Part shown: one piece after another, positions 50,446 through 58,388 of the stretch
Numbering within the stretch: position 1 is the first letter of the stretch
Layout of the letters: every line of letters starts with the position of its first letter
Assembly (NCBI RefSeq): GCF_947179015.1
Contig: NZ_CAMXCM010000003.1
Location: 1-64,000, forward strand
Reading direction: 5' to 3'
Origin: Commensalibacter communis
GTDB lineage: Bacteria; Pseudomonadota; Alphaproteobacteria; Acetobacterales; Acetobacteraceae
Length of the DNA stretch: 64,000 bases
Translations under genes and position numbers: made by a program
Notes under the pieces: generated by a model
What the model saw: the letters and a program-made list of their open reading frames with translations, nothing else
Told to the model about the DNA's origin: nothing
Database searches by the model: none

Positions 50446-52719
50446 ATGTCAAATAATATCAATCAAGACACCAATTTTAGTAATGTAACCATCACAAATG
50501 AGTATCCTTGTTTAATTGGGGGAACATGGACAGCCCAATTAAAGGATGATAAAACGGTGTATGTCAGTTCCGATGGTTCACAAACTATAGAAGGACCTGT
50601 AAATTTAATTGGTGCCAATTTGACAATAGCATCTGGTGCAATTGTCAGCTATGCCGTAATTGTTGGAAATTCAAGTAACTCATCACCTAAAATAACGGTT
50701 CAAGCTGGCGGTACTATTGAAAATTCTGACATATTTAATGGGGCTATTACCATTGCTGACGGGGGAACGTCTTCTTCCAATAACTACGTGGGCGAAGCAA
50801 TAACATTTAACTCTGGATCGGCATCTTTAAATGATACATTCTATAATCCAGGGAATGCAGGAACTTCGAGTGGTACATTAAATTTATCGCAGCTCCCTGC
50901 AGGAACGTCCACAAGTTTTACAACTTCTAGTAAAAATGGAAGCATTAAAACTGCAGCAAATGTTAAAGTTTTAAATTTTAGCGCTCCTAATCTTACTGCA
51001 AATAATGCCAATGCTTCAAAAACGGGAACGTTATCATTTCGTGTTAACCATAGCTCTGAATATGGCTCAGCAAATATTTCGCAAGAGCCACATGCTGACT
51101 ATAGTAATAATCAATTTACATTAACGAATGATTATCCTTCTTATGTTGGGGGAACTTGGACGGCAAGCCTTGTTGATGGTAAAACAGTTTATTCCAATGG
51201 AACATTAAATAATATTGAAGGCCCAATTAATTTAATCAATATTAGAGGGATGACGATTAATAGCGGTGCAGTGGTAGATGGTATTACGATGACTGGCACA
51301 ACTACTCCTACTATTTATAATAATGGAACAATACAAAATTCTTTCGTGGCGAATGGTTATTTGCAGAATGGTTCTAATACGACGACGGGCATTTCTCGAA
51401 ATAATACATATATTTCTCAAATAACTTATATTTATAATGGTAGTGTAACTGAAAATGATTATTTCTATGAACCAGGTAGTTCTTATGGGAAATATAATTT
51501 AACCAATACGCCTAGTGGTACGCCAGCAACCTTTCATCTGGGCGATGGTAAAGGCAATATATATTTATATCAAGGTGCAAGCTTTCAGGATAGCTATGTT
51601 GGAACAGGAAGCGGCGCTATAATTGATGTGTATCAGTATAATGGTGCTGCCGTTTCAAACTATTCAAATAGTGATGTTTGTTTCTTAGGGGGGACATTAA
51701 TCGATACACCAAACGGTGCAGTTGCTGTTGAAAACTTACAAATTGGCGATAAGGTTGTTTCATACAGTATGGACGGTGTAAAAAATAGTCTTATCACATG
51801 GGTCGGTCATAAAAAAGTTAACGTTCGTAAGCAACTATCTGAAGATCAGGCTGGTTATCCAGTTAGGATTTTAAAAGATGCAATTTCGGATGGCGTTCCC
51901 TTTAAAGATCTTTTGATTACTGCTGAACATTGCTTATTTTTAAATGATCAGTTTATTCCTGCACGTATGCTAGTCAATAATAGTTCAATTTTTTATGATG
52001 TTTCTTTTACTGAATATACTTATTACCATATTGAAACGGAAGATCACTCTGTCATTACGGCTGATGGGATGCAAACGGAAAGTTATTTGGATACTGGTAA
52101 TAGATCCAGTTTCCAAGACAACAGTAACGTTATTCCTCTTTATCCCAAAGCCAAACAATGGAATATCGATTCAGCATATCCATTGGTTGTTACCCGTGAA
52201 ATCGTCGAGCCAATTTATCAGCAACTCGTAGGACGTGCAGCATCCCTTGGTTTACAATCTAAATCTATTGAGCTTCCTGTCACGCAAGATGCGGGATTGC
52301 ATCTTGTGACTAATAATGGTGAAGTTATTCATAAAGCACATGAATCAAAAGGTCGTTTTTCTTTTGTTATTCCCCGGAACACATCAAGTGTTCGATTGGT
52401 CTCAAGAACGAGTAAGCCCAGCCACATTATTGGACCATTTGTAGATGATCGTCGTCATTTAGGAGTCTTGGTAGGAAATATAACATTATTAACGAATAGC
52501 ATAATATATCCTATTGAAGATCATATAGAATATCCACGTTTGCAAGGATGGGATGTGAAAGAGCAGGGGCCACATCGCTGGACAAATGGTAACGCGGTAT
52601 TAAACCTAGCTAATCATGGCGGTGAAGAATCTTCTGTAATTGTTATTCATGTTCTTGCAGGGGGTCCCTATATTGCCCAAGATCATGAAATGTCAGAAAA
52701 GATAGCCATTAACCAGTGA
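50446..52719 (+). CDS. Hint-domain surface protein 1
   Basis: 757 residues without a classical signal. The N-terminal part (about 1-400) is rich in Asn, Gly, Ser and Thr and looks like a beta-helix, with two copies of a unit near residues 19-75 and 226-281 (GGTWTAQLKDDKTVY and GGTWTASLVDGKTVY). At Cys412 a Hint_2-type (Hedgehog/intein) domain starts: CFLGGTLIDTPNGAVAVENL, ITAEHCLFL, ARMLVNNSSI, ETEDHSVITADG and TESYLDTGNR. A conserved 180-residue tail follows. Hint domains can cleave themselves; here release or attachment of the N-terminal part is inferred. Confidence 0.8.
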   Translation: MSNNINQDTNFSNVTITNEYPCLIGGTWTAQLKDDKTVYVSSDGSQTIEGPVNLIGANLTIASGAIVSYAVIVGNSSNSSPKITVQAGGTIENSDIFNGAITIADGGTSSSNNYVGEAITFNSGSASLNDTFYNPGNAGTSSGTLNLSQLPAGTSTSFTTSSKNGSIKTAANVKVLNFSAPNLTANNANASKTGTLSFRVNHSSEYGSANISQEPHADYSNNQFTLTNDYPSYVGGTWTASLVDGKTVYSNGTLNNIEGPINLINIRGMTINSGAVVDGITMTGTTTPTIYNNGTIQNSFVANGYLQNGSNTTTGISRNNTYISQITYIYNGSVTENDYFYEPGSSYGKYNLTNTPSGTPATFHLGDGKGNIYLYQGASFQDSYVGTGSGAIIDVYQYNGAAVSNYSNSDVCFLGGTLIDTPNGAVAVENLQIGDKVVSYSMDGVKNSLITWVGHKKVNVRKQLSEDQAGYPVRILKDAISDGVPFKDLLITAEHCLFLNDQFIPARMLVNNSSIFYDVSFTEYTYYHIETEDHSVITADGMQTESYLDTGNRSSFQDNSNVIPLYPKAKQWNIDSAYPLVVTREIVEPIYQQLVGRAASLGLQSKSIELPVTQDAGLHLVTNNGEVIHKAHESKGRFSFVIPRNTSSVRLVSRTSKPSHIIGPFVDDRRHLGVLVGNITLLTNSIIYPIEDHIEYPRLQGWDVKEQGPHRWTNGNAVLNLANHGGEESSVIVIHVLAGGPYIAQDHEMSEKIAINQ

Positions 52720-53713: not shown

Positions 53714-54118
53714 ATGAGCTTTTTCCCTGCATGGTCAAATAGACCACCCTTAAGACGTATTTTTATTAAGAATTTGATTTTACAAGCCCGAATTGGCGTT
53801 TATGATTTCGAACAAGAAACAACCCAACGGTTGCAAATAAATATTTCTGTGGGGGTTATCGAGGATAAAGGAATTGGTATCGATGATCTCGCTCGGACAG
53901 TATCTTATGAAGATATTACCAATCAAGTTAAGACAATTGTTAGCCATACCCATTTTCATTTAGTTGAGACTTTGGCAGAAACAATTATTGAAACGATTTT
54001 AGAAGATAAACGTATCCATGTGGCGCGTGTCACGCTTGAAAAGCTGGATATCATTCCTGAGGCTCAAGGGGTTGGAGTGGAAATTGAGCGTTGGAATAAA
54101 AAAATAGTTTTTTCATGA
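53714..54118 (+). CDS. folB: Dihydroneopterin aldolase
   Basis: 134 residues. Cleaves dihydroneopterin in the folate pathway. Family marks are IFIKNLILQARIGVYDFEQE near residue 18, the sequence TVSYEDITNQVKTIV near 60 and HFHLVETLAETIIE near 80, and the catalytic Lys in LEKLDIIPEAQGVGVEI. Length is normal. Translation starts 12 bases after the SDR gene, which is an operon-like spacing. Confidence 0.9.
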   Translation: MSFFPAWSNRPPLRRIFIKNLILQARIGVYDFEQETTQRLQINISVGVIEDKGIGIDDLARTVSYEDITNQVKTIVSHTHFHLVETLAETIIETILEDKRIHVARVTLEKLDIIPEAQGVGVEIERWNKKIVFS

Positions 54119-54250
54119 CTATAATTAACTGGAAATTAATCGTCCTTTGTGATGAAATGTGCCGAAAATTTTCATTTATTTTCAAGTAAATAGTCTTCTT
54201 TATAATTTCCGTATTAAAATATAGTTTTACTAGCTTAAGTAAATACTCAT

Positions 54251-54270
54251 AGAATAATATATCCTACGAA
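54251..54270. repeat. Left arm of inverted repeat around the integrase
   Basis: AGAATAATATATCCTACGAA. Its exact reverse complement is at 56065-56084. A tyrosine recombinase gene lies between the arms. If both arms are recombination sites, exchange would invert the 1.8-kb segment. Confidence 0.9.
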
Positions 54271-54693
54271 TTTTTAAGAAACATATCTATATTAATCATA
54301 TATACATTTTTTGATATATAAATACAATACGTTATTATTGCATTTATTATTGTAAGTTTTGACTGTCATATTCTAAACAATTCATTAATATCATTTATTT
54401 ATTTTTGAACGACTAATTGCCGTGCAACATATTATCAAATAACAATCTTTTTCTTTTCAATATAAAATAATATATATTTGAGAACGCGTAGATTCTCAAA
54501 TATATAATGAACGTTTTTAACAGTAATTTATTGGTGTATATATATATTATTGAAACACCTTACCCTACGAGCAGTATCTATATTTAATTAGTAAGTAAAT
54601 ATTTATTGAAAAAAGATTCTTTATAAATAATATGAATTTTAATTCAAATCAGAATCTAACTATTTTATTGTAAGAATAGTTCTCTTCGTTAAT

Positions 54694-54731
54694 TTACTCT
54701 TTAAAATCATATTTTATGTAATACATATATA
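54694..54731. repeat. Left copy of imperfect direct repeat flanking the integrase
   Basis: A 38-base copy beginning TTACTCTTTAAAATCATA and ending ATACATATATA. A 36-base relative with a few differences (shared cores TCATATTTTA and TAATACATATA) lies just after the integrase gene at 55982-56017, in the same orientation. Confidence 0.7.
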
Positions 54732-54775
54732 TAAAAAATAAACATCTATTTTAACACATAAACAGAATATAAGAA

Positions 54776-55963
54776 ATGCCCCGCTTACTTATTAATCAGT
54801 TATCAGAAAAAAAAATTAACCAACTAAAAAATGGTACACATTCAGATGGAAGAAATCTATACTTAAATATTCGTGGAAATTCTAAAATATGGGTTTTTCG
54901 TTTTAAAAGTCCAATTACTGGTAAGATTAGAATGCAAGGATTGGGTCCTTTTCCAATTATATCCTTATCTGAAGCTAGAAATTTGGCAAATAAAAACAAA
55001 GAAATGCTAATCAATCGATTAGACCCTTTAGAGGAAAAACGTAATCGCAAGCTAGCCATACAAAAAAGAAATAAATTATTTATTGAGGTAGCTAAAGAAT
55101 ATACTAAAAATCGTTCTAAACAATGGCGTAGTAAAAAAACACAACAAGAAACTGAAAGCTTACTTCGAAATTATATTAATTCTAATTTTGAAGGACGATT
55201 AATTTGCTCTATAACATCTAATGAAATTTTGGCCTTGTTAAAACCAATATGGTATAAGCACACGACTACAGCGGTAAAATTACAAGGTTTATTAACGCGT
55301 ATTTTCCAATATGCAATCGCTTATGGTTGGTATGAAGGTAACAATCCTGCTAAATGGAACGGCTTTCTAGAAAATTTATTACCTAAACCATCGTTAATTA
55401 CTAAAGTTACCCATTATAAAGCTTATGACTGGAAACAAATTAATAAACTTTATAAACGTTTAAGATCTATTAATACAATTCCTAATCTTGCCATATGTTT
55501 TATTTGTTTAACAGCTTGTCGTTCAGCGGAAGCTCGAGAAATGCAAGTAAAAGAAATTAATTTTTCAGATAAACTTTGGACACTACCTGCTTCACGGAGC
55601 AAGACAAATAAATGCCATCGTATCCCGTTATCTGATGAAGCTTTAGTTATTATTCAATGTGCTTTGAAACTTAATAATAATGAAGGTGTTTATGTTTTTC
55701 AACATAATAAAAAACCGATTTACGATAAAGCTCTTTTATTTGCTGTAAAGAAAGCTGCTAATGATAAAGAAATGACTTTACATGGATTCAGGTCATCGTT
55801 TAGAGACTGGGGAAGTGAGGCAACCAATATACAATCAGAAATACTTGAAATGGCTTTGGGTCATTCTATCAGGTCAAAAGTGGAGGCTGCATATAGACGA
55901 GGAGATATGTTGGATAAAAGAAGACAACTGATGAATAAGTGGGCAGAATATTGTACTAACTAA
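54776..55963 (+). CDS. Tyrosine-type integrase (P4/DUF4102 type)
   Basis: 395 residues. The N-terminal DUF4102 arm-binding part (SDGRNLYLNIRGNSKIWVFR, SLSEARNLANKNKEML) and a SAM-like core-binding part precede the catalytic domain. Catalytic residues are Arg in CLTACRSAEAREM, His and Arg in LHGFRSSFRDWGSEA, His in ALGHSIRS and the Tyr in EAAYRRGDML. Such integrases normally move genomic islands at tRNA or tmRNA genes, but no tRNA or other phage gene is next to it. An inverted repeat and a direct repeat bracket the gene. AT-richness suggests transfer. Confidence 0.92.
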   Translation: MPRLLINQLSEKKINQLKNGTHSDGRNLYLNIRGNSKIWVFRFKSPITGKIRMQGLGPFPIISLSEARNLANKNKEMLINRLDPLEEKRNRKLAIQKRNKLFIEVAKEYTKNRSKQWRSKKTQQETESLLRNYINSNFEGRLICSITSNEILALLKPIWYKHTTTAVKLQGLLTRIFQYAIAYGWYEGNNPAKWNGFLENLLPKPSLITKVTHYKAYDWKQINKLYKRLRSINTIPNLAICFICLTACRSAEAREMQVKEINFSDKLWTLPASRSKTNKCHRIPLSDEALVIIQCALKLNNNEGVYVFQHNKKPIYDKALLFAVKKAANDKEMTLHGFRSSFRDWGSEATNIQSEILEMALGHSIRSKVEAAYRRGDMLDKRRQLMNKWAEYCTN

Positions 55964-55981
55964 AATTACTCTCAAATAGTT

Positions 55982-56017
55982 TTACTTTTAAGTCATATTT
56001 TAGATAATACATATAGA
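55982..56017. repeat. Right copy of imperfect direct repeat flanking the integrase
   Basis: A 36-base relative of the sequence at 54694-54731, placed 18 bases after the integrase stop codon. Confidence 0.7.
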
Positions 56018-56064
56018 TTTACAATATTAAATTATTCATAGAATTCATAAACTTAACAACATTA

Positions 56065-56084
56065 TTCGTAGGATATATTATTCT
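56065..56084. repeat. Right arm of inverted repeat, close to the Hint gene
   Basis: TTCGTAGGATATATTATTCT, the exact reverse complement of 54251-54270. It ends 33 bases before the GTG start at 56118. Within and beyond it, CGTAG and CTACG form a further small palindrome. A promoter inside the segment could reach the Hint gene only in one orientation. Confidence 0.9.
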
Positions 56085-56117
56085 ACGAAAATAATGAATA
56101 GTTAAGGTATTGAAATC

Positions 56118-58388
56118 GTGGTAGATAATAATCAGCTAACAAGTCTAGGTTCAGATACAAATTATAACAATTTTGTGATTAAAAATGATTGGCCTATCAT
56201 AGGACCAAATATTCGCGCAGGCGACGAAAGTTATTATGCGAGACTCGATCCGACTACCGGTAACACTTATTTTTATGATTCAAGTAATAAATTAGTTACA
56301 GATAACAATGGAAATCCAATAACACAACCTGTTAATATAATAGCTAAAAGATTATATGTTGAAGCTGGTGCGACGGTTGAAGGGAATGAAATTATTGCTT
56401 TGAATCGTAACCCGGAAATTTATGTTCAGAAGGGTGGAACGTTAGTCGGCAATAATATCTATAATTCGACTGTTGCGCTTGCTGATGGAGCAGTTTCGGA
56501 AAGAAATTACAACGTATCGACGAAGTACAATATTGCTGCTGGTGGCGTGTCTATGAATGACAGTTTTGTTGAGCCAGGAGGCACGGTTCGTACTCCTTTT
56601 GACAATCCCAACAACACGATTGGTTTAACTGTTTTGGCAGGAGATGGAGGTGCAGACATAAGTATCGCTTCGGGTGGTGTGATGGAAGATGCAAGTTTCC
56701 CAAAACTGAATGCTGCTTCAAATCCAAGCGCTTCAGCTGTGAATGTGGGCTTGTATAGTGGCAGTCAGTATAATTTGCCAGCTGGCTATAGCGCTGATCA
56801 ATTTAAGGGGATGAATGTATCCAATGACAACCCAGTCCTTTGGGGCGGAAGCTGGACAGCTAGGCTGGTTGACGGAAAAACGGTCTATATAAATGGAACG
56901 CAGACACTTGATGGACCCGTGAACCTGCTGAATGGTGCAACATTGACTATTGAAAACGGAGCTGTTGTTGAGGGGCTTAATTCTTTCCCTGGTTCAAGAA
57001 TTATTGTCAACAATGGTGGAACTATTAAAGATTCAAACATTTACAGCAATAATATTACGGTTCAATCTGGTGGGATTTCACAAGATAATACTTATGTATC
57101 TAGTCAAATAAGTTTAGCAAATGGCGCAACCTCTGATTCTGATGGGTTTTATAATGTACCTAGGCAAACTGACTTGTCAAATACTTTCACTAATCCAAAT
57201 TTAAATCAGTACTTATCTTCTAATAGCACTAATTTTAATGCATCAACTCAAGCAGGCTCTTTCAGTAGTGGTGGTATAAATAGTAATTTACTCAATCCTA
57301 CATTTGACAATCAATCTGGCCCTGGGTTTTGGATTTATCCTTATGGTGGTGAAAATAATTACCCTTGTTTCCTAGCAGGTTCATTGATTAGTACTCCTAT
57401 GGGTGACGTCAAAATTGAGGCATTGCGTCTCGGGGATGAAATTTATACATTGACCCCGCAGGGTAAAAAATTGCAAGTAATTACTTCTATTGTTTGCGAC
57501 ACATACTACGTCAAAAATATATCTTTTGACGATATTGCTGGCTATCCTGTCTGTATTACTAAAGACGCGATTGCTCCAAGCGTACCTTATAAAGATTTAT
57601 TCGTTACAGCAGAGCATTGCGTATTCCTTGATGATAAATTCATTCCCGTGCGTATGTTGGTTAATGGACGTTCAATTTATTACGATCGCTCAAAAATGAA
57701 ATTTATATATTACCATATTGAAACGGGTGAGCATTCTGTTATTATAGTTAATGGTATGTTGACAGAAAGTTTTCTTAATACACAAAATCACACTGTACAC
57801 GATGGTAATGTGATTAGGATGCGAAAGAAAACATGGGCAGGCGATGCTGCAGCCCCCTTGACAGTCGACCGTGGTAGCGTTGAACCAATTTTTAATAGGT
57901 TACTAAATCGTGCAATTAAAAATAATATTCAATGCAAAGATATTAAGAAAAATGTAACGAACGATCATAATGTGCAGCTAATAACTGATAATGGTAAAGT
58001 GATTGATAGAATCATGGTGCAGGGACAGGATAAAGTTATATTTATCGTGCCAAGAAATACTTGCAGTGTCAGAATTCGTTCACGTTCTGGCAGATTAAGT
58101 GACACTGTTGGTCCATTCATTGATGATCGTCGTCCCCTTGGTGTGTTAGTCAAGAATATAACTATTTTTAATCGTAACAAAATTGATCATATTGAGACGC
58201 ATTTATTAACCAAAGATCTTGCTGGATGGTATGATTCAGAGGATGCTTCATTAAGATGGACGAATGGTGATGCCTTTTTGCCATTAGATGACTATTGTAA
58301 AGAGGACAACTGTATACTGATATTGGAGATTGTTTCTGCTGGACCATACTTTATACAAGAGGAAAGAGGCATACAAATGGCAGTCTAA
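56118..58388 (+). CDS. Hint-domain surface protein 2
   Basis: 756 residues from a GTG start with AAGG upstream, paralogous to the gene at 50446. The N-terminal 400 residues are Asn/Gly/Ser-rich beta-helix-like, with one GGSWTARLVDGKTVY unit near residue 252. The Hint_2 domain starts at Cys417 (CFLAGSLISTPMGDVKIEAL) and includes VTAEHCVFL, VRMLVNGRSI and ETGEHSVIIVNG. The usual LDTGN end of this domain reads LNTQN here. The C-terminal part matches paralogue 1 (VPRNTCSVRIRSRSG, GPFIDDRRPLGVLVKNIT). Probably surface-exposed. Confidence 0.8.
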   Translation: MVDNNQLTSLGSDTNYNNFVIKNDWPIIGPNIRAGDESYYARLDPTTGNTYFYDSSNKLVTDNNGNPITQPVNIIAKRLYVEAGATVEGNEIIALNRNPEIYVQKGGTLVGNNIYNSTVALADGAVSERNYNVSTKYNIAAGGVSMNDSFVEPGGTVRTPFDNPNNTIGLTVLAGDGGADISIASGGVMEDASFPKLNAASNPSASAVNVGLYSGSQYNLPAGYSADQFKGMNVSNDNPVLWGGSWTARLVDGKTVYINGTQTLDGPVNLLNGATLTIENGAVVEGLNSFPGSRIIVNNGGTIKDSNIYSNNITVQSGGISQDNTYVSSQISLANGATSDSDGFYNVPRQTDLSNTFTNPNLNQYLSSNSTNFNASTQAGSFSSGGINSNLLNPTFDNQSGPGFWIYPYGGENNYPCFLAGSLISTPMGDVKIEALRLGDEIYTLTPQGKKLQVITSIVCDTYYVKNISFDDIAGYPVCITKDAIAPSVPYKDLFVTAEHCVFLDDKFIPVRMLVNGRSIYYDRSKMKFIYYHIETGEHSVIIVNGMLTESFLNTQNHTVHDGNVIRMRKKTWAGDAAAPLTVDRGSVEPIFNRLLNRAIKNNIQCKDIKKNVTNDHNVQLITDNGKVIDRIMVQGQDKVIFIVPRNTCSVRIRSRSGRLSDTVGPFIDDRRPLGVLVKNITIFNRNKIDHIETHLLTKDLAGWYDSEDASLRWTNGDAFLPLDDYCKEDNCILILEIVSAGPYFIQEERGIQMAV

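Follow-up and report, generated by a model that had tools for sequence, protein, structure and literature searches.

A plasmid-type integrase gene between inverted core sites in Commensalibacter communis: a candidate self-inverting module beside a Hint-domain gene

Why should a tyrosine integrase gene lie between the arms of an exact inverted repeat, a few dozen bases before the start of a putative surface-protein gene? The question is raised by a 64,000-nucleotide stretch of Commensalibacter communis DNA (NZ_CAMXCM010000003.1, positions 1 to 64,000, forward strand; hereafter the window), which lies on contig C3 of a 2,576,009-base genome in 66 contigs. Here we find that the repeat sits within two full recombinase core sites of opposite orientation whose 3-bp centres match in the same inverted sense, and that a related arrangement recurs on a second contig of the same genome, C16. 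The reading we favour, with a probability of about 0.5, is a self-inverting module that would act on the adjacent gene—an inversion predicted from sequence. The features that carry the argument are as follows.

54250..54271 (+) and 56064..56085 (-): left and right arms of a perfect 22-bp inverted repeat (exact match; 25 nt at 96% when loosened)
54246..54270 (no strand): left core site, CTCATAGAATA-ATA-TATCCTACGAA (outer half, centre, inner half)
54776..55963 (+): tyrosine integrase with an arm-binding domain, 395 amino acids (Pfam search)
56065..56089 (no strand): right core site, inverted relative to the left one, TTCGTAGGATA-TAT-TATTCTACGAA (inner half, centre, outer half)
56118..58388 (+): Hint2, a 756-amino-acid Hint_2-domain protein with a GTG start that adjoins the right core (Pfam Hint_2 only)

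A sequence-only reading of the window had drawn attention to a 20-mer at 54251-54270 that recurs as its exact reverse complement at 56065-56084. This is borne out, and the perfect match extends to 22 bp; in 60 dinucleotide shuffles of the 1-kb integrase flanks the longest inverted match was 15 bp. The genome contains the 20-mer exactly twice, with up to 2 mismatches tolerated, which rules out a common genomic repeat—the finding that was to have sunk the earlier proposal. Among 30 control integrase loci (from 30 of the 32 matching genomes among 60 searched; the C16 locus was not in the set), an exact inverted match of more than 13 bp between the 1.5-kb stretches at the two ends was found only in the window; the 29 other loci had none, several of them being cut by contig ends and with flanks partly covered. 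The arms were also said to enclose nothing but the integrase and AT-rich DNA, and indeed there is one long open reading frame (ORF) amid AT-rich non-coding sequence, the other ORF of at least 80 amino acids (54796-55059, minus strand) overlapping it. The right arm ends 33 bases before the GTG of Hint2 at 56118, again as described; for the full 25-bp core the distance is 28 bases.

What, then, are the arms? Core sites of tyrosine recombinases consist of two inverted half-sites around a centre, and the 22-bp repeat lies within two 25-bp sites of just this form: half-site, 3-bp centre, inverted half-site. The right core has 0 mismatches to the pattern TTCRTAGRATANNNTATYCTAYGAA, a pattern derived from these very sites; the half-site TTCGTAGGATA occurs in this genome at four core places and one unrelated place. 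The integrase itself carries the domains Arm-DNA-bind_3, Phage_int_M, and Phage_integrase (PF13356, PF22022, and PF00589) at 51.6, 74, and 57.6 bits, all above the Pfam cut-offs, so that arm-binding, core-binding, and catalytic domains are united in one protein, as in arm-domain tyrosine integrases. Simple recombinases of the FimB or PsrA sort have core-binding and catalytic domains only; the arm-binding domain places the window enzyme outside that group. Three solved chains that match it bear the names phage integrase or CP4-like integrase.

Comparison across the genus (9 genomes, that of the window and 8 others, G001 to G008) supports the view that the arms are the integrase's own core, because such a dyad lies upstream of the integrase gene in 4 of the 4 relatives examined. 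The window integrase is 89% identical to that of C16 and 65-68% identical to these four, which are encoded on circular contig C17 (L064), on G006:C2 (L065), on G002:C6 (L066), and on plasmid pB of C. papalotli MX01 (L067). Each has a single dyad, AGAATA-NNN-TATTCT, 41-43 bp upstream of the integrase start, with 3, 4, 4, and 6 mismatches, respectively, to the full 25-bp pattern. The relatives thus share the enzyme family and the inner core with the window; they differ in having one core upstream of the gene, and a comparison of their flanks (up to 1.5 kb on each side; only 346 bp upstream in L064) showed no inverted partner. Plasmid pB is a circle of 6,791 bp that encodes RepB and the integrase (PMC3945503). 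A second, weak core-like site with 4 mismatches lies on pB at L067:6580, and tandem AACTTCAAAAAGGTTACTTTT repeats near the integrase genes of pB and C17 look iteron-like by eye.

The second locus on which the argument draws lies on C16 (L063), a contig of 13,421 bp that encodes a Rep3 initiator and is probably a circular plasmid, since its ends overlap by 111 bases. It has two cores of its own.

Left of the C16 integrase: left core, TTAAAAGTATA-TCG-TATCCTACGAA
Right of the C16 integrase: right core, inverted relative to the left one, TTCGTAGGATA-CGA-TATTCTGCGAT

The longest exact inverted match here is 18 bp, against a maximum of 14 in 60 shuffles. The right core ends 23 bp before the start of a TibC-type heptosyltransferase gene, whose product scores 583 bits against TIGR04414 (autotransporter strand-loop-strand O-heptosyltransferase; cut-off 200). 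This gene is followed by a 1241-amino-acid ORF that runs across the contig end—its last 585 amino acids match strand-loop-strand, AIDA, and Hint_2 models—and then by an FkbM methyltransferase gene. Homology between the two contigs spans 54560-56087 in the window and 8868-10399 on C16, and is uneven: 194/203 bases are identical in the leader (54573-54775), 220/222 in integrase codons 1-74, 845/966 in the rest of the gene, and 79/101 in 55964-56064. Some features of the C16 surroundings may be noted in passing. The outside of the right core is an inverted relative of its inside (TTATTCATAGA...ACTTTA.AACT), giving a dyad of about 89 bp (L063:10343-10431) that includes the heptosyltransferase start codon. 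In the left flank, homology to an open parA-like frame of G002:C2 extends to 8837 and leaves 17 bp up to the core; the ParA-like piece (L063:8546-8837) is 94% identical to that frame and contains an internal stop, as a remnant would. The comparison with G002:C2 gave no clean empty site for the C16 left flank, and the left-flank query also found 80% matches in G006 and G007.

The centres are our main argument. Within each locus the two trimers are reverse complements, ATA/TAT in the window and TCG/CGA on C16; over both loci the inverted match is 6/6 bases and the direct match 0/6, and inverted matching at both would arise by chance with a probability of about 0.0015 at the composition of the window's non-coding flanks. 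Both loci therefore present inverted core sites with centres identical in the inverted sense, as an inversion switch would, and the recombinase is encoded within the segment (54776-55963). Because the half-sites are symmetric, the 3-bp centre alone would decide between excision and inversion; an ordinary integrated element, bounded by attL and attR, predicts direct identity of the centres, which is 0/3 bases at each of the two loci, and inversion accordingly fits better than excision. That the centres differ between the loci (ATA, TCG) where the integrases are 89% identical would be expected if the arms of each locus were kept alike by recombining with one another.

The events we propose would run as follows. 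The plasmid-type integrase would recognise the two inverted cores that enclose its own gene; recombination within the 3-bp centres (54257-54259 and 56076-56078) would flip the enclosed segment, and the flip would exchange whatever transcribes Hint2, so that one orientation might be ON and the other OFF. Such an inversion could serve phase variation of surface proteins.

Evidence on the history of the site bears on this proposal and on its rivals, and calls for some further features of the window.

53714..54118 (+): folB, the host gene left of the segment (Pfam search)
54471..54506 (+): stable hairpin between the left core and the integrase gene (z -4.93; 0/200 shuffles as stable), without a C16 counterpart
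54560..54572 (no strand): decayed left core half, TTACCCTACGAGC, at the position that corresponds to the C16 left core
54711..54732 (+): candidate arm-type site upstream of the integrase gene, ATTTTATGTAATACATATATAT, in direct repeat with its downstream counterpart
55997..56018 (+): candidate arm-type site downstream of the integrase gene, ATTTTAGATAATACATATAGAT, kept in L063 as ATGTTAAATAATACATATTAAG

The sister species G002 also has a core behind folB, ACCATAGAATA-ATG-TATTCTACGAA, in the corresponding position. Compared with the left core of the window, it departs in its two outermost bases, 1 centre base, and 1 inner-half base, and in both genomes TTTTTAAGAAA follows; with this core and TTTTTAAGAAA in place in G002, the left core and at least the first bases inside it predate the split. 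Next to the G002 core, Hint2 survives as a C-terminal remnant (L085:4900-5250). A rival explanation takes the locus for a minimal integrated element, or for what remains of an integrated plasmid, in which an integrase gene with its attP entered an attB-like site after folB; attL and attR would then have supplied the repeat through their inner half-sites, with centres derived from target and donor, in the coupling-sequence manner of Tn916. The outer halves in the window do match the halves of the G002 site (9/11 and 11/11 bases), the C3-C16 homology ends inside the C16 cores, and each of the four next relatives has a single core close to its integrase gene. TAATAC-containing sequences, candidate arm-type sites, lie near the integrase gene at each of the six loci; those of the window and C16 flank it on both sides in direct orientation, and in an excised circle they would flank the core, much as in an attP. 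Against this, the direct centre identity that normal excision needs is 0/6 bases. Centres drawn from target and donor, moreover, predict no inverted identity, whereas inversion, or a past inversion with repair, does. The TTTTTAAGAAA that follows the left core also lies inside the window segment and not in the right-hand host flank. Finally, an empty site that joins the two flanks of the segment was not found in the 8 other genus genomes. The interval between folB and the FYDLN gene was placed in 9/9 genomes and read in these 8: it holds other genes in G004, G006, and G007, read as an ABC ATPase and permease with further genes (no family search), and measures 150-178 bp in G003, G005, and G008; in G001 folB and FYDLN are on different contigs; G002 has the core, its right flank deleted into Hint2. 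On balance we regard an integrated element as unlikely, but as an account to be reckoned with.

The left end of the segment has a history of its own. The chromosomal left site that matches the right one lies about 300 bp further out than that of C16, because the decayed core half at 54560 marks the position of the C16 left core. The 290 bp just inside the left core (54271-54560) are without relatives among the fetched loci, and beyond its first bases this piece found no match in a DNA search of 299 family genomes; by eye its start resembles the left inner flank of C16 (ATATCTATATT.AATCA). The decayed core half also suits a second rival, a relic: the sites would have been active formerly, or would be operators to which the integrase binds, with recombination now at an end. 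The cores of the four relatives may be operators, as they lie just downstream of a promoter-like -35/-10 pair (by eye). Yet the window cores share a perfect 22-bp repeat, and the integrase gene is open, encodes complete domains, and keeps the near-identity to C16 over its first 74 codons; we hold a relic to be very improbable.

A third rival would make the locus a small transposon with terminal inverted repeats and a single tyrosine recombinase, moving in the manner of RIT, SE, or Tn554 elements by a copy-out or strand-biased route. In its favour, a unit running from arm to arm is found on two contigs of one genome, and terminal inverted repeats are known in SE elements (imperfect, 13-19 bp) and in RIT elements (34 bp; PMC10214605). 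SE, GInt, RIT, and Tn554 all resemble the window in placing tyrosine recombinases between terminal inverted repeats, and differ in having several conserved genes, in transposition or its footprint, and in a spacer taken from the donor flank (PMC10214605, PMC3414803). Elements of the RIT, SE, and Tn554 type carry three or four conserved genes, several recombinases and partners among them, against a single long ORF here. The SE donor spacer becomes the new right end, which we take in the direct sense, so that inverted centres would not result (PMC10214605). Only two copies with repeats were found in the collections searched, both in this genome, and a transposon is in our judgement improbable.

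To return to the self-inverting module: an inverted repeat alone does not prove inversion, and what raises the reading is its recurrence on a probable plasmid, there with a matching centre of its own and with adhesin-modifying genes adjoining. A number of points weigh against it. About 12 bp of each repeat is the ordinary symmetry of a core, and is no evidence for inversion: att cores being inverted repeats themselves, inverted half-sites would also stand at both ends of an ordinary integrated tyrosine-recombinase element, a point overlooked by the sequence-only reading, which assumed direct repeats at the ends of integrated elements. The outer halves are alike because the host-like site of G002 is symmetric too, and the decisive signal comes to 3 bp per locus. 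The left core of C16 is weak: its outer half accounts for all 3 of its mismatches. Nor are the loci wholly independent of one another: 414/425 bases are identical between 54573-54997 and L063:8880-9304, adjoining integrase sequence that is otherwise 87% identical, so that this left part has undergone recent exchange or conversion between the contigs. Both loci stand in the same orientation, and the single assembly, made of contigs, is without a flipped junction, the 20-mer being at its two known places only; of the invertible segment first proposed, the inverted full cores, the matching centres, and the second locus speak for it and the assembly does not. Arm-domain recombinases occur in most of the phages and integrative and conjugative elements surveyed and are described mainly as mobile-element enzymes, and the genetic switches described use, on our interpretation of the source, other recombinases (PMC8138268).

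Further points, for and against, concern Hint2 and its expression. The earlier description of Hint2 as a Hint surface protein holds as far as the Hint_2 domain goes; its surface location is putative, and it has no match in NCBIfam and none to an adhesin-repeat model in Pfam or NCBIfam. The gaps of 28 and 23 bp between right core and downstream gene are too short for a sigma-70 promoter, and transcription must therefore start within the segment, at the core itself, or still further upstream. Integrase and downstream gene are co-directional at both loci, and a scan gave no terminator-like site between them at either. One promoter-like site points toward Hint2.

55981..56008 (+): promoter-like site, TTTACT-16-GATAAT; TTTACT-16-AATAAT at the homologous place in L063

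These sites lie 104-109 bp before the start codons; such matches are as a class near chance and also point outward at the other end. Over the two loci we counted 23 promoter-like matches against 14.8 +/- 3.9 in shuffles and 14 against 11.6 +/- 2.9 (2.1 and 0.8 standard deviations above), on both strands and at both ends. The suggestion that orientation sets Hint2 expression thus gains from the want of promoter room in the 28 bp and loses from the modest excess and scatter of these matches.

Outside this genome the closest relative of Hint2 is in G008 (48%), where it is directly followed by a gene 55% identical to the C16 heptosyltransferase; in G005 the match coordinates agree with the same order, a Hint2 relative before a TibC-like heptosyltransferase (ORFs were read in G008 only). 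This adjacency links the two genes that bear the module here. In both genomes a dyad resembling the core, with 2 mismatches, is found where the heptosyltransferase gene starts (G008:C1:1151006-1151026, G005:C1:1164874-1164894); it may be chance, as a reversed control pattern matches equally often in both genomes.

How does the locus compare with known switches? The closest proven system in outcome is, by analogy, the ipuS/UpaE switch of uropathogenic E. coli (alongside fimS and hyxS), in which a tyrosine recombinase gene lies beside a small invertible segment that drives the operon of a surface adhesin, an autotransporter (PMC6083910). There the promoter is inside the invertible segment and inversion is proven; in the window inversion is a prediction. 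The ipuS segment is 260 bp with 7-bp repeats and contains only the end of ipuA, in contrast to a whole gene between 25-bp cores, and the window enzyme, unlike that system, has an arm-binding domain (PMC6083910). For a gene inside the inverting locus the closest analogue is PsrA of the pneumococcal cod locus, a tyrosine recombinase encoded within the locus it inverts, as would be the case here, and one for which inverted repeats of only 15 bp can suffice (PMC7096588, PMC12324116). PsrA, however, swaps hsdS coding segments, is not linked there to a family of plasmid integrases, and, on our interpretation, has no second copy on a plasmid as part of the system (PMC7096588, PMC12324116).

The wider proposal is that an arm-domain plasmid integrase has become a phase switch that inverts its own gene. 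In one insect symbiont it would stand upstream of a Hint gene on the chromosome and of an O-heptosylated-adhesin operon on a plasmid. The arrangement might have arisen from an integrated element with direct centres, which a mis-aligned exchange followed by repair would have turned into a locked inverton with inverted centres. We offer this tentatively, at somewhat unfavourable odds. If the segment flips, it would give the insect-gut genus Commensalibacter a DNA-inversion switch of putative surface genes, and it would show a way for a mobile-element integrase to become a switch of its host, through reversal of the 3-bp centre that symmetric half-sites enclose. Since the cell has two natural versions whose centres differ, cross-talk between the loci would be directly testable. 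For phase variation by invertible DNA in the Acetobacteraceae we found no paper in the open-access literature, under a single wording for the family.

Further copies were sought in several collections. DNA searches of plasmids, phages, and viral contigs gave no match, in collections that may omit this genome's own record; a tblastn search of plasmids with the integrase gave 713 records, all below 60% identity. Of two DNA scans of genome contigs the first found none and the second plasmid pB of C. papalotli and two distant integrases, and in the 299 family genomes a match over most of the query was confined to this genome. A scan with the core pattern gave, besides hits in the other genomes, a further core-like match at G000:C5:10545; two others, G000:C6:81635 (1 mismatch) and G002:C1:379501, fall at the start of a thiamine-pyrophosphokinase-like gene (name read by eye), look like chance, and were set aside. 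Proteins of the Hint_2 type are themselves common in the genus: the window encodes two, at 50446-52719 and 56118-58388, and Hint2 has matches in 9/9 genomes, with 30 matched stretches in G004.

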